In this document: positions 4,737 to 31,124 of the stretch, piece by piece
Layout: the number at the start of each line of letters is the position of its first letter
Position numbering within the stretch: the first letter of the stretch is position 1
Source of the DNA: Eubacteriaceae bacterium
GTDB taxonomy: Bacteria > Bacillota > Clostridia > Eubacteriales > Eubacteriaceae
Assembly: GCA_016650045.1 (NCBI GenBank)
Contig: JAENWK010000015.1
Coordinates: 1-32,017 of the forward strand
Reading direction: 5' to 3'
Length of the DNA: 32,017 nt
Position numbers and translations under genes: made by a program
The notes under the pieces: generated by a model
What the model was told of the DNA's origin: nothing
Seen by the model: the letters and a program-made list of their open reading frames with translations, nothing else
Databases searched by the model: none

Positions 4737-5840
4737 ATGGAAGAAAAACTTATTCGTGAACTGATTCAAACAGCATTATCTCAATTAGCAAGTATGGGAT
4801 TGGCTGATGAAACGCTTAAATCGTATCGAACATATGCATTTCATCCTTTGGAAAGATTTTATGTGGACAAAGGAAAAGTTTTATATGATAGTAGTCTAAT
4901 GATTGAAATGTATCATTTATACCAACTCCAATACAAACAGGGAGTGATTTTGAAACAAACTTTAAACTGGCAATTGCGGGGTATTGGCATTATCGATGAA
5001 ATATACAATACTGGTTTTTTTGAATGGAAAGTCTTTAGTCAGAAGAAAAAAGAGGAAATGCCGGATGTTTATGAAAATATCATCATCGATTTTTCCAACA
5101 CACTGCTGTGCTGTAACAAAAGAAAAAGCAACTATGAATCCATTGTCAGGCGTTTTCTTATTTTTATGATTAAAAGCGGCAAAGAAAATCTTTCTTCAAT
5201 AAACGATGTATTGCTTCGAAATTTTCTGGTTGAAATTTCAGCTGATAAACCCAAAAGTATGGATGATGTAATAACTGGTCTCAAGAAATTTTTACAGTAC
5301 CTGAATGAAAAATTATTTATTGAGAATCGATATTATTCTATTCTTGCAGCGCCAAGGTCAAGGGATCGGAAAGTAAACCCCTGCATGGATGCAAACGAAC
5401 TGGCAATGATGATGAATAGTATCGACAGAAATACAACCAGTGGCAAACGGGATTATGCAATTCTTATTCTTGCCGCCACAACTGGGCTGCGTGCAGGTGA
5501 CATCGCTTCTCTCCGACTGGATTGCATCAACTGGAAAAGAAATGAAATTCAATTTGTTCAGGGCAAGACTTCCGAAGCTAATATATTGCCATTACCCCAA
5601 AATGCAGGCATAGCCATTGCGGATTACATTCTATACGCCCGTCCAAAAACAAGCTTGGACACGTTGTTTCTCAGAAACTATGCACCATATAAGGGTTTTC
5701 ATGATGGCGTGTCTGTGTCATGTATTTTCAGAAAATACCTTAAGAAGTCAAATCTGGCACATAAAAACGGGGATGGAAGAACCATGCACGGCATTCGAAG
5801 AATGATTGGCACTGAAATGATGAGAAACAAATTGAAATAG
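4737..5840 (+). pseudogene. Tyrosine recombinase (phage-integrase family), lacks catalytic Tyr
   Basis: The start is taken at the ATG at 4737, preceded by GGAGG at a good distance. The ATG at 4722 overlaps that ribosome binding site. The 367-residue product has a SAM-like core-binding domain (about 20-200) and the first part of the catalytic domain: Arg252 in TTGLRAGDIASLR, a beta-hairpin Lys around 277 (QGKTSE), and His351/Arg354 in MHGIRR. It then ends abruptly in MIGTEMMRNKLK. The LGH box and the nucleophilic Tyr that should follow about 20-35 residues later are missing. It resembles the recombinases of multi-integrase elements such as Tn554-like transposons. It is probably catalytically dead because of 3' truncation. 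The next gene begins 23 bp later with its own ribosome binding site. Confidence 0.8.
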
Positions 5841-26193: not shown

Positions 26194-26394
26194 TTAACCG
26201 CCTCCAAGTAGTTTTAAAATTGTTATTTTCATTTCATCCTGAGCCAACCGATGTCCTAAATTAAGCCGTGATAATACACAACCATCCACTATAACAATAT
26301 TCGCCCCTTCAATCACTACTCCAAATTTTTTAAAAGTTTTATCCAGAGTCAATCCTGGATAAAACTCATATTCTTTTTCATTAATAGTAATCAT
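26194..26394 (-). CDS. MoaD/ThiS-family sulfur-carrier-like protein
   Basis: This 66-residue ubiquitin-like protein begins MITINEKEYEFYPGLTLDKT and ends LKLLGGG with the C-terminal Gly-Gly needed for adenylation and thiocarboxylate formation. One extra Gly follows. Its ATG overlaps the aor stop by one base (TAATG), so it is translationally coupled. MoaD-like proteins next to aldehyde:ferredoxin oxidoreductases are thought to serve dithiolene formation of the tungsten pterin cofactor. Here it is the last gene of the operon. The size is slightly short for MoaD and fits ThiS-like carriers. Confidence 0.82.
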   Translation of the reverse strand: MITINEKEYEFYPGLTLDKTFKKFGVVIEGANIVIVDGCVLSRLNLGHRLAQDEMKITILKLLGGG

Positions 26395-28097
26395 TAGAAA
26401 TCAAACAATACTTCCAATTCCAAATCGTTAATGTCAAATACCGAACCAGTAGCAGGTGATCTGTCTGTATAAAAGAACTCAGGGAGACGATCATCTTTAG
26501 CTGTCATACCAGCCATTTGATTGTATCCTCTTTCTGTAAGAAGGGTAGTTACTCCCATGGTAGCCACGCGGGTAAAGTCTGAAGTTCCTCCATAAAGAGC
26601 TGCCATTAGTTCCCCAAGCAAAGGAAGAACAGGAACAGCATGAGCAAAAGCGAAAAGACACATCATACTGTCGGCAAAACACATAGCCACCTGTAATTTA
26701 CCGGAAGCATAGGCTTGACCCGTTCGACCAGCATCATCAAATGCTCGACCCATGGTAAGGCCTGCGGTGTGGTCGGCACCCATAGGACTAGTTGCATAGG
26801 TAATCCCCGTTCCTTTGGTGTTTCTGGGATCGTACCCTGCCATACTCTGGTGTTTAACGACTGGTATTCGCTTGCAGCCCAGGTGTAATCCCACAGCTTC
26901 ACAACCTTGACCAAGCAAATTCCCGAATTCTGTTCCCTCTTTCAATTCATTCAAAAGACCCATTACAGCAGGAATATCTCCCCACTCAATTTTCCCTGCA
27001 TCCATACATACTGCAATGGAATTGGCAGTTTCCATCGTATCCACACCGATGTCGTCACATAAACGATCCATTCGCGCAATGGCATCCAAATCTGAAATAT
27101 GACAATTCGGTCCGAATAATGCAATCGTTTCGTATTCAAAACCAGATGTTATATAATTTCCATTCGGATCATTGTAGCAATTAGAACAGTGAACCACACA
27201 CCCTGGTTGACAGGAGATCTTATTTTTTCCTCCGCCTGATTTCAGCTTATCTAAAAACGCTTGTGCGCCAACTTTTTCATAATCGCCAAAAAACTTCCCT
27301 GAAAAATTATCCACAGGTAAAATGCCGGAGGCACCGGAAATATCCGTTGTCGCAACGGTTCCAATAATACTGAATGGGTCGGTTTTTGCCCCTTCAGCGA
27401 TCACTTTATTAAGCTGTAAACAAACTTCTTTAAACTTTGTCTCATCAGCATAAGTCACTTTAAACTTTTCACTGGGTTCCTCAATAACCACAGCCTTTAG
27501 CCCTTTGCTACCCAAAACAGCAGCGATTCCTCCCCGGGCGGCAGCGCGGCTTGGGTGGCCTGATTTAAACTCGGTAATCTGAATCGAAGCATTTTTATAA
27601 AGACGTTCTCCTGCACAACCGATCGATATGACTGCACAATTATCACCATAAGTTTCTTTCATCGCTTCTGCAAACTCATAATTATTGACACCCTTATAAA
27701 TGGCAGCATCTTTAAGGGTTGCATTGCCATCGGCGCCGATGTGAAGTATCCATAATCCGCTTTCTTCTGGAACATCCAATACCTCAATCATTTTTATTCC
27801 TTGATTGGCCATTTGATAGGCGGCGTTTCCACCACTATTGCTTTCTTTAATTCCCCCGGTTAAAGGACTTTTCGAACCAATAGATAAACGATGTGCTGTT
27901 GTTAGCTTGGTTCCTGCAAAAAGACCCGTACAAATCACCACTCTATTTTGACTTCCAAGTGGATCACATTGAGGTGGAATACGTTTAATCATATATTGGG
28001 CAATCAGGCTTCTGCCCCCAAGTTCCGCTAAATCTTCCTCTATTTTGTCTTTTGTAACCGTGAGTTTTTTCATGTTAACAGTTAATTTTGACCACAT
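26394..28097 (-). CDS. aor: Aldehyde:ferredoxin oxidoreductase (tungsten pterin enzyme)
   Basis: The 567-residue enzyme starts at ATG 28097 behind AAGGAGGTATTGATATA. It has the AOR layout: N-terminal cofactor domain (GGRSLIAQYM, LTTAHRLSIGSKSPLTGGIK, ESNSGGNAAYQMA), then RAAARGGIAAVLGSKGLKAV. The cluster motif is CxxxCxxxCxxC (Cys296, 300, 304, 307: SCQPGCVVHCSNC), and the distal cluster Cys lies in FADSMMCLFAF. It catalyses reversible aldehyde oxidation to the acid with ferredoxin, using a bis-pterin W (or Mo) cofactor in the cytosol. It is co-transcribed with an iron alcohol dehydrogenase upstream and a MoaD-like gene downstream. The pair would interconvert alcohol, aldehyde and acid. Slightly shorter than well-known AORs (about 600). 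Substrate range unknown. Confidence 0.88.
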   Translation of the reverse strand: MWSKLTVNMKKLTVTKDKIEEDLAELGGRSLIAQYMIKRIPPQCDPLGSQNRVVICTGLFAGTKLTTAHRLSIGSKSPLTGGIKESNSGGNAAYQMANQGIKMIEVLDVPEESGLWILHIGADGNATLKDAAIYKGVNNYEFAEAMKETYGDNCAVISIGCAGERLYKNASIQITEFKSGHPSRAAARGGIAAVLGSKGLKAVVIEEPSEKFKVTYADETKFKEVCLQLNKVIAEGAKTDPFSIIGTVATTDISGASGILPVDNFSGKFFGDYEKVGAQAFLDKLKSGGGKNKISCQPGCVVHCSNCYNDPNGNYITSGFEYETIALFGPNCHISDLDAIARMDRLCDDIGVDTMETANSIAVCMDAGKIEWGDIPAVMGLLNELKEGTEFGNLLGQGCEAVGLHLGCKRIPVVKHQSMAGYDPRNTKGTGITYATSPMGADHTAGLTMGRAFDDAGRTGQAYASGKLQVAMCFADSMMCLFAFAHAVPVLPLLGELMAALYGGTSDFTRVATMGVTTLLTERGYNQMAGMTAKDDRLPEFFYTDRSPATGSVFDINDLELEVLFDF

Positions 28098-28131: not shown

Positions 28132-29286
28132 CTAAGCATCAAAAGCTGCTTGAAGCATACTGGCAACCTTTGCTGCTGTTATACGATATGGTGCTATGGC
28201 AAATCCAGCATCGCCCGTCACCATAGGCGCAATAGCTATAACTTTTTCGAGATCGAATCCTAATTCCTTCATATTTGGTATATCTACAGATTTTATAAAT
28301 TCACGAAGGAGTTTATTAGCCAAAGCTCCGATTTCTTCCCAAGTTGCGTCCTCTTGAACCTTCTCACCAAAGCATTCACATATCATGGCTACGTTTTTCC
28401 ATTCTGATTTTGCTGAGTATTCAATGACTTCCGGCAAAACCAATGCACAAGCGAGTCCATGCGGAATGTGAAAAGTCGCTCCCAAAGAGTGACCGATGGA
28501 GTGTCCTAAATGAACCAAAGCATTTGAAAAAGCCATGCCTGCAAACATAGATGCATTTATCATTTTCTCTCTTGCCTCAAGATTTGATCCATCTTTATAG
28601 GCAATTGGTAGCCACTTAACGATATCACGAATTGCTTCTTTCGCTAAAGCATCAGACAAGGGATTGACTTGGCCTCCAGTCATACATTCTACAGCATGAG
28701 CCAAAGCATCGATCCCTGTTGCAGCCGTCATTTTTGCTGGAAGACCCAAGGTTAAATCCGGATCAATAAGAGCCAGCGTTCCAAGACAATGAGGGCCCAT
28801 AACGCTGTCTTTATTTCCTCTGGATGTACACGAGATAACAGCCATATTTGTTACTTCACTTCCGGTTCCGCTAGTCGTAGGAATAAAAATCATAGGCACT
28901 CCGGGTTTCAGATCGGTACGATAACCAAAATACTGTAAGATAGGTGGTGGATTATTAATAAGCGTATTGACGCCTTTTGCAGTGTCAATGGAACTTCCTC
29001 CTCCTACCGCTACAATACCGTCAATTTTTTCATTTCTGGCCAATTCTGCTACTTCTTCAACCAATATGTCCGGTGGATCGGCAAGAACATTGCCAAACAC
29101 AACAGTCTCGATACCTGCTGCTTGAATATTTTCAATTATTATATCCGCTATTCCAACATCCTTAAGTCCCTGATCATGAACCACCAAGACCTTTCGGCAA
29201 CCTAATGCTCTTGCTTTCATACCAACTCGTAGTGAAGCTCCGGACCCCATAAGTGCCGGAACAAATACATCATAATTCGTTATCAT
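28132..29286 (-). CDS. adh: Iron-containing (group III) alcohol dehydrogenase
   Basis: The start is taken at ATG 29286, with AAAGGAAAGACTAAC upstream. A GTG-started extension would lack a ribosome binding site. The 384-residue product has the NAD(P) motif GGGSSID (95-101), IPTTSGTGSEVT (135-146) and the iron ligands Asp193 and His197 (GIDALAHAVE), His262 (GHSIGH) and His276 (FHIPHG). This is the FucO/AdhB spacing. It reduces aldehydes or oxidises alcohols in the cytosol. It is first in the adh-aor-moaD operon, so aldehyde would pass to AOR. Its start region lies inside a 90-bp tandem duplication. The divergent PucR-type gene is the likely regulator. Confidence 0.9.
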   Translation of the reverse strand: MITNYDVFVPALMGSGASLRVGMKARALGCRKVLVVHDQGLKDVGIADIIIENIQAAGIETVVFGNVLADPPDILVEEVAELARNEKIDGIVAVGGGSSIDTAKGVNTLINNPPPILQYFGYRTDLKPGVPMIFIPTTSGTGSEVTNMAVISCTSRGNKDSVMGPHCLGTLALIDPDLTLGLPAKMTAATGIDALAHAVECMTGGQVNPLSDALAKEAIRDIVKWLPIAYKDGSNLEAREKMINASMFAGMAFSNALVHLGHSIGHSLGATFHIPHGLACALVLPEVIEYSAKSEWKNVAMICECFGEKVQEDATWEEIGALANKLLREFIKSVDIPNMKELGFDLEKVIAIAPMVTGDAGFAIAPYRITAAKVASMLQAAFDA

Positions 29287-29428
29287 GTTAGTCTTTCCTT
29301 TCTTTTTCAGATACACAAATTCTTCTAGACCAATCTACATAAGTGCCGGAATAAGTACATCATAATTCGTTATCATGTTAGTCTTTCCTTTCTTTTTCAG
29401 ATACACAAATTCTTCTAGACCAATCTAC
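29249..29428 (-). repeat. 90-bp tandem duplication of the adh start region
   Basis: Copy 1 (29249-29338) and copy 2 (29339-29428) are directly adjacent and differ at two positions that I can see (ACAAATAC versus ATAAGTAC). The unit contains the ribosome binding site, the ATG and the first 13 codons of adh. Confidence 0.95.
29335..29376 (-). CDS. 13-codon leader minigene created by the duplication
   Basis: In copy 2 the duplicated ribosome binding site (AAAGGA) and ATG at 29376 open MITNYDVLIPALM followed by TAG at 29337-29335. The peptide is the adh N-terminus with Phe-to-Leu and Val-to-Ile changes. It is stopped by the repeat junction. It would be translated ahead of adh if the transcript starts upstream. 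Whether it has any function is unknown. Confidence 0.5.
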   Translation of the reverse strand: MITNYDVLIPALM

Positions 29429-29492
29429 ACATATTCTATCAAAAATACATTTTTTTGTATACGGTTTCAATAGACGAATTCCCTCAGGATTT

Positions 29493-29511
29493 TTTATGCT
29501 TTGTGCATAAA
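29493..29511. promoter_or_regulatory. Inverted repeat in adh/PucR divergent region
   Basis: TTTATGC-TTTGT-GCATAAA (arms 29493-29499, 29505-29511) lies in the 170-bp spacer between the divergent operons. It is a candidate binding site for the PucR-type regulator. No convincing -35/-10 pair could be fixed for either gene. Confidence 0.45.
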
Positions 29512-29600
29512 CTACATAAATAACCCATTTCTTATGTAATTTTGAAAGGTTATGTGATAAAATAAGACAATGAATTAACTCAATTTTTAAGGAGACTGAT

Positions 29601-31124
29601 ATGCTTTTTTTAGAAATGGTGAATAAATTAAAAAAAAGTTATGAGATTGCTATTTCAGACTTTGATAACCAAACTTTAATCTTTGATGTTGTGCTTTTAA
29701 CCAGCGGTCAAGTCGATTGGTTTTCCAATACACTTTATATTGGCAGTCTTTCCCAAATCAATTTTCCCTTGGAACTGCCAATTGCGATACTTTCACCGGA
29801 TTGTGATGACTTTGAAAACATGCTTTCGCTAGGAAGCTGTTGGGGGATACTAAAAAGCGAATCTCTGAATGAAATTTACTATATGGCTAAAGAAATCCTC
29901 TACGAAAACCTGAAATCTCAAGCAATATCCTTTCAGGTTGCCCAAGCGGTGCTTGAGAGTAAAAATATTGTCTCACTCATGAATAAGGTAGCAGCTCTCA
30001 TTGGCAACGCCCTAATTCTTGTCGATTCAAATATGAAAGTGCTTGCCTATTCAACGATATATGAAATTATGGATCCTTTATGGCTTGAGAATATTAAACA
30101 AGGCCATTACTCCTACGATTTTATTAAAAAAGTTAAGTTCAATTCGGAAATGCAATCTTGGAGCAAAACAGGAGAGGATAATAAAACCATTACACTTAAT
30201 GGAGATATTCAGCCAAAACTGGTGAGCCGTATCACGAAAAATGGTCATTTAGTAGGAGGCTTGATTATGATCGCTCATCATACACCCATCCGTTCAATTC
30301 ATACCACCCAGCTGCCTCAAATTGCCAAGTTACTCTATGAATTTTTATGTATTTCCACAGAGAATGAAATTTACAAATCCGTTTACAGTTCGGCAATTGC
30401 TCATATTCTTTCTGAAGATAGTGAAAACGTTTCTCATGATCTGTTAATCTTGAACAAATCTGATTTCTCTTCTGGAATGAAGGTTGTGATTGCCCGTTTT
30501 ATTGTGCACACCAAAAATAGATTTCTAAAAAGATCTATCGGTCTTGAATTCGAAAGAATTTTTCAAAAGGGCTATTCATTTCAATATAAGAATTATATCG
30601 GTATTTTAGTGCCTGAAATTTCTTCTGATCAACGACATGCTTTGAGCGAATTAGCAATGCTTGAAAGCATTAACATAGGTATTAGCTGGCTATTTTTTGA
30701 TATTCTTGACTTAAAGAAATACTTTCATCAGTCCGTCGCCTCCATAAAACAAGCGCAACTTTTAAGGAAAACCAATCAGGTCCTGGATTACACGGACTAT
30801 GCTTTTTATCATCTACTTAATCAAATTTGGGGGCAAGCCTCCCTCAATACATTTTGTCATCCAGCTCTGATCATTTTAAAAGACTATGATAAAAATAATT
30901 CTGCTGATTTTTATAGAACTTTGGAGACATTTTTGTCTGCGAATAAAAACTTGAAAGATACCGCAGAGATTTTAAATCTGCACCGTAATTCTCTCACATA
31001 TCGGATCACACGAATTAGAGATCTTACGAGTTTGGATCTCAATGACAACAATACTGTTTTTTCTTTAATGTATTCATTTCGTTTAGTGCATTATCTTGAA
31101 GCTTCTGAGATATTCAATTTGTAA
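29601..31124 (+). CDS. PucR-family transcriptional activator
   Basis: This 507-residue protein starts at ATG after AAGGAGACTGAT. The N-terminal about 100 residues carry a PucR-type receptor-like domain. A middle GAF/CdaR-like region follows (about 105-250: NIVSLMNKVAALIGNALILV, GHLVGGLIMIAHH). The C-terminus is the PucR helix-turn-helix (about 440-500: ETFLSANKNLKDTAEILNLH, RNSLTYRITRIRDLTSLDLN). It is transcribed away from the adh-aor-moaD operon and presumably activates it in response to an alcohol, aldehyde or related metabolite. PucR regulators are known for purine and other catabolic operons. The ligand here cannot be read from sequence. Confidence 0.85.
   Translation: MLFLEMVNKLKKSYEIAISDFDNQTLIFDVVLLTSGQVDWFSNTLYIGSLSQINFPLELPIAILSPDCDDFENMLSLGSCWGILKSESLNEIYYMAKEILYENLKSQAISFQVAQAVLESKNIVSLMNKVAALIGNALILVDSNMKVLAYSTIYEIMDPLWLENIKQGHYSYDFIKKVKFNSEMQSWSKTGEDNKTITLNGDIQPKLVSRITKNGHLVGGLIMIAHHTPIRSIHTTQLPQIAKLLYEFLCISTENEIYKSVYSSAIAHILSEDSENVSHDLLILNKSDFSSGMKVVIARFIVHTKNRFLKRSIGLEFERIFQKGYSFQYKNYIGILVPEISSDQRHALSELAMLESINIGISWLFFDILDLKKYFHQSVASIKQAQLLRKTNQVLDYTDYAFYHLLNQIWGQASLNTFCHPALIILKDYDKNNSADFYRTLETFLSANKNLKDTAEILNLHRNSLTYRITRIRDLTSLDLNDNNTVFSLMYSFRLVHYLEASEIFNL

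Follow-up and report, generated by a model that had tools for sequence, protein, structure and literature searches.

Does the repeated sequence at the start of adh, a gene for an iron-containing alcohol dehydrogenase, represent a regulatory leader that the gene has made from itself, or a duplication that it tolerates? We examined this question in a window of 32,017 bases, the whole stretch of DNA analysed, from a draft genome of a Eubacteriaceae bacterium. In the window, adh (384 aa, Pfam PF00465 and PF25137) lies on the minus strand at 28132..29286. The second gene of the pair, on the same strand at 26394..28097, encodes an aldehyde ferredoxin oxidoreductase (AOR; PF01314 and PF02730), and a regulator with a PucR-type C-terminal helix-turn-helix (PF13556) is divergently encoded on the plus strand at 29601..31124. 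Directly after the AOR gene there is an ORF of 66 aa (26194-26394), which gave no Pfam match at 0.001 and which, judged by eye, is presumably ThiS/MoaD-like, a small sulfur carrier. Together, AOR and ADH may reduce an acid to the corresponding alcohol, a plausible role for this gene pair. One study postulates an AOR/ADH route for acetate (PMC5367853).

The order adh, AOR, divergent regulator is common to the window and to the loci of two close orthologues. The closest, L002 from a Clostridia MAG, shares 70% identity in adh, 72% in AOR and 43% in the regulator; L013, from genome G029 of the same family, shares 62%, 61% and 43%, respectively. The alignment of adh with both runs from residue 1, which supports the adh start. 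For Pfam and some of the homologue searches the adh query lacked its initial Met, and the full 384 aa were used in the class-wide search.

On the minus strand, two adjoining 90-bp copies are arranged head to tail at the adh start with a spacing of 90, the upstream copy at 29338..29427 and the gene-proximal copy at 29248..29337, and they are identical at 88 of 90 positions. Each unit opens with 51 nt of leader, which carry the ribosome site and include AAAGGAAAG, and continues with 39 nt from the ATG, that is, the ATG and 12 further codons of adh. The probability of at least 88 matches in 90 at one given placement has a log10 of -47.5, and a chance resemblance of the two copies is thus excluded. 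Tandem Repeats Finder returned five rows for the 32,017 bases, of which two describe the 90-bp array and the other three have periods of 13, 17 and 18. The breakpoints overlap by 2 nt (TG), giving three equivalent registers; the span 29249-29428 given in the original prediction is one of them. The tandem duplication of the ribosome site, ATG and 13 adh codons was therefore correctly recognized from the letters.

The two start codons, the upstream ATG at 29376 and the adh ATG at 29286, are in the same frame. The upstream ORF (29335..29376, minus strand) encodes the 13-codon peptide MITNYDVLIPALM and, as had also been predicted, stops in TAG exactly at the junction (29337-29335), this TAG being the triplet with which the gene-proximal copy begins. 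An identical TAG opens the upstream copy at 29427. Since the triplet was already present in the leader that was duplicated, the stop arrived with the duplication and required no selection. From the TAG of the upstream ORF to the adh ATG the distance is 48 nt.

We then considered how widely the duplication occurs. Both close orthologues are single-copy, and neither L002 nor L013 carries a second adh start ahead of the gene. A search of the genus matched the region in 2 of 19 genomes: our own, in which the region is present once, and one with two short pieces inside the coding part of adh. The own genome (G000; 2.23 Mb, estimated completeness 98.9%) is smaller than any of the 18 other genomes searched in the genus, which range from 2.7 to 4.1 Mb. 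A class-wide search of 391 genomes (E <= 1e-110) recovered only the own gene and one in G188, whose locus L067 (4,152 bases) is contained in L002 and adds nothing. Megablast found no copy of the region in plasmids, and a 25-base pattern of the region was not found in viral contigs. The titles and abstract openings that literature searches returned gave no account of this duplication.

To gauge the background of such repeats, 41 stretches of the own genome, the window among them (400,981 bases in all), were scanned for tandem units 30-400 bp long that are at least 93% identical. The other finds were a microsatellite of 9 bp in L061, a repeat of 31 bp in L092 and, within a long open frame of L106, an array of 36 bp. 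The microsatellite (TCATTTCTT) occupies L061 1-146, from the first base of contig C140, and the perfect 31-bp tandem repeat at L092 4309-4376 lies in no stop-to-stop frame longer than 80 codons. The same scan of 41 further loci, L002 and L013 among them (212,092 bases), found no tandem unit of 30-400 bp. In two one-contig relatives (400,000 bases, 20 stretches) it found only two period-89 arrays, both in L083, which are tRNA-Thr and tRNA-Asp genes. A comparable duplication is thus rare, there being no other one in the sampled own genome or the two relatives. A single event, however rare, is uninformative about function.

The copies are adjacent and direct and share little homology at their breakpoints (2 nt, TG), the two features by which a short-homology tandem duplication is recognized. 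In bacteria, short spontaneous tandem duplications with little or no breakpoint homology form the replication slippage class. The repeat at adh resembles them in its head-to-tail direct arrangement and its 2-nt breakpoint overlap, but differs in that its copies carry two differences and in that its origin was not directly observed. The duplication is ordinary in kind, and its inclusion of a start region is incidental. At present it is an isolated, unreplicated case from one draft genome.

On balance, we consider it probable that this is a chance short-homology tandem duplication, tolerated by the gene and changing adh output modestly at most. Most simply, replication slippage or another short-homology event between breakpoints sharing TG would have doubled the last part of the adh leader together with the opening 13 codons. 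The gene would have kept a ribosome site and start next to it, leaving adh intact. The upstream copy is probably transcribed; ribosomes could start at its identical site, make the 13-residue peptide and terminate 48 nt short of the adh ATG, and adh would be initiated from its own ribosome site. The original prediction had left it undecided whether the second copy modulates adh or is tolerated; tolerance is the reading we prefer, and modulation is kept as a rival below.

As for transcription, the minus strand has two promoter-like matches, with ends at 29433 and 29442, that lie upstream of both copies. The former is a weak pair (29433..29461; TATACA, 17 nt, TAGAAT, with TG ahead of the second hexamer), and from it transcription would begin near the first base of the upstream copy. 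Counting both strands, the region holds three promoter-like matches and shuffles are expected to hold 2.4, so that the number of matches is no evidence for a promoter. No transcript start inside copy 1 (below 29339), the refuting case named in the original prediction, was seen among these matches, though such a start may exist.

To determine which copy has changed, we compared the two differences, at 29262 and 29265 in the gene copy and at 29352 and 29355 in the upstream copy, with the homologues. Residues 8-9 read F-V in the gene copy, in L002 (MITSYNVFVPSIMG) and in L013 (MITSYEIFVPVIMG), and L-I in the upstream copy. Since the gene copy keeps the F-V of both close orthologues, the changes probably occurred in the redundant copy, and L-I is probably the derived state. 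Among 26 aligned homologues, F-V is found only in L002 and L013, residue 8 is L in 15, and L-I also occurs at these residues in L028, a distant homologue (39%). L-I is thus a pair that such enzymes accommodate, and the polarity hangs on the two nearest orthologues.

It had been argued from the two substitutions that the duplication is not brand new, an argument that holds only in part. The differences do exist, but they lie 3 nt apart, at the first base of two adjacent codons, and two random sites among 90 lie within 3 nt with a probability of 0.066 (and both inside the 39 coding nt with a probability of 0.185). The two substitutions may be one event, and they could date from the duplication event itself, from a diverged strain or from misassembly of the draft genome. 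Direct repeats of 82 bp and 35 bp carried by an E. coli plasmid were reported to be lost through frequent, RecA-independent deletion (PMC7063769). A multicopy plasmid with spaced repeats is a harsh comparison; by this analogy, a 90-bp direct repeat should nevertheless be lost frequently. Two differences in 90 before loss are awkward for a neutral duplication unless both arose at once. If they were gained one by one, the repeat has outlived its instability, which would favour selection; if a single step brought both, by error-prone copying or by recombination with a strain that had diverged, nothing can be concluded about selection.

Next, we asked whether the upstream ORF behaves as a leader peptide. 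Known leader-peptide ORFs and attenuators (uORF4u, PMC10219788) are alike in placing a short ORF with its own ribosome site before a metabolic gene; the adh leader differs from them in having no terminator, no unusual fold and no sequence conserved in the two orthologues, and its peptide is copied from the gene itself. We found no terminator-like site in 29200-29650 and no Rfam match in 29000-29700 up to E = 1. The predicted fold of the 221-nt RNA has -42.9 kcal/mol, where shuffles average -40.54 (sd 4.19; z -0.56), and 48 of 200 shuffles folded at least as well. Attenuation and a riboswitch were rejected on these three results.

Upstream ATG-initiated ORFs as such are common in these leaders, with seven in L002 and four in L013, and in neither orthologue does one resemble MITNYDVLIPALM; a conserved upstream ORF, like a terminator or an unusual RNA structure, is thus lacking. 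The peptide itself has no run of one amino acid. Translational coupling, in a study of a synthetic system, was highly effective at -1 to 5 bases and weaker with distance (PMC11602170), and the 48 nt between stop and start here are not the close spacing of termination-reinitiation coupling. To call the ORF a leader peptide for adh, as the original prediction did, is overreach, given the ordinary fold, the 48-nt gap and the lack of a terminator, an Rfam match and a copy in either close orthologue. As far as this evidence reaches, the MITNYDVLIPALM stub appears to be a by-product.

The two-copy leader might still be kept for tuning adh output, with the second ribosome site and the short ORF altering ribosome loading, RNA folding or mRNA decay. 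We regard this as unlikely. We modeled the cost of opening the RNA for 20 combinations of assumed transcript start and end, using 42 coding nt per unit. A 12-nt element, UAGAUUGGUCUA, can pair fully with its other copy (G-U pairs included; -10.0 kcal/mol), enclosing the upstream ribosome site, and this site is costlier to open, 4.90 kcal/mol (sd 0.58) versus 2.94 (sd 1.09) in a one-copy leader; the adh ribosome site costs 2.28 (sd 1.61). These values would suit tuning, but the leader as a whole folds no better than its shuffles. Opening the adh start region costs a mean of 7.81 kcal/mol (sd 0.66) in the one-copy leader and 7.42 (sd 1.13) in the two-copy leader, so that on average little change is predicted for adh. 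Five of the 20 combinations, those that end 40 nt past the ATG, gave the opposite sign, with a cost at the adh start of 9.0-9.5 for two copies and 7.6-8.6 for one, and the predicted outcome depends on the assumed transcript end.

Tuning gains some support from other systems. In L002, three upstream ORFs at 4956-4997, one of 35 codons, one of 13 codons (MINIPCQKEGVKM) and a start-stop ATGTAA with GGAAGGAG just ahead of it, end directly at the adh ATG. This layout looks coupling-like, although it is unrelated in sequence to MITNYDVLIPALM, and the absence of any orthologous ORF resembling that peptide speaks against tuning, as does the composition of the peptide. In evolved E. coli, a 38-bp duplication at argB is likewise a small duplication just upstream of a start codon (PMC6941894). 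That one emerged during laboratory selection and begins 13 bp before the start, whereas at adh the start codon was copied too. Six of the mutations, when reintroduced, raised ArgB 2.6-8.2-fold; which six is not named in the section concerned (PMC6941894). The persistence of the repeat with two differences, despite the instability expected of it, also favours tuning.

It is rather less likely that the repeat is an assembly artefact, in which two strain alleles of one start region, L-I and F-V, were joined in tandem in the draft. The draft genome is split into 217 contigs and has an estimated contamination of 2.71%, and the two differences could be strain polymorphisms. Against this stand the clean 2-nt junction and the lack of any general excess of such duplications in the 400,981 bases of the own genome.

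A further reading goes beyond tuning: through duplication of its start, adh would have created a regulatory leader ORF in a single step, the two-copy leader would be held against loss because it adjusts adh output, and the upstream codons would be diverging as a separate small ORF. We consider this improbable. If it were true, one- and two-copy states would interconvert by slippage, constituting a reversible expression setting. Should selection be maintaining the repeat, it would exemplify in nature an upstream ORF that arose from its own gene in a single step, and this path to new leader ORFs could be tested.

Read-through of the TAG into a longer dehydrogenase with a 30-residue N-terminal extension is extremely improbable: 90 is a multiple of 3 and no other stop lies between the two starts, but L002 and L013 align from the Met of the gene copy, the TAG came along with the duplicated leader and need not have been selected for coding, and pyrrolysine read-through was rejected because no pyrrolysyl-tRNA synthetase (PylS) was found in this genome, 98.9% complete by estimate (best score 24.6 bits against a cut-off of 178.15, which 1 of 14 control genomes passes).

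Outside the duplication, between the divergent adh and regulator genes, we noticed an inverted repeat, TTTATGC-N5-GCATAAA (29493..29511), which is a candidate operator. This is its sole occurrence in the own genome, and the backwards control occurred 0 times. A three-way alignment of the intergenic regions was informative only near the adh start and ribosome site. In the corresponding intergenic region of L013 there is an overlapping TTATGC/GCATAA palindrome.
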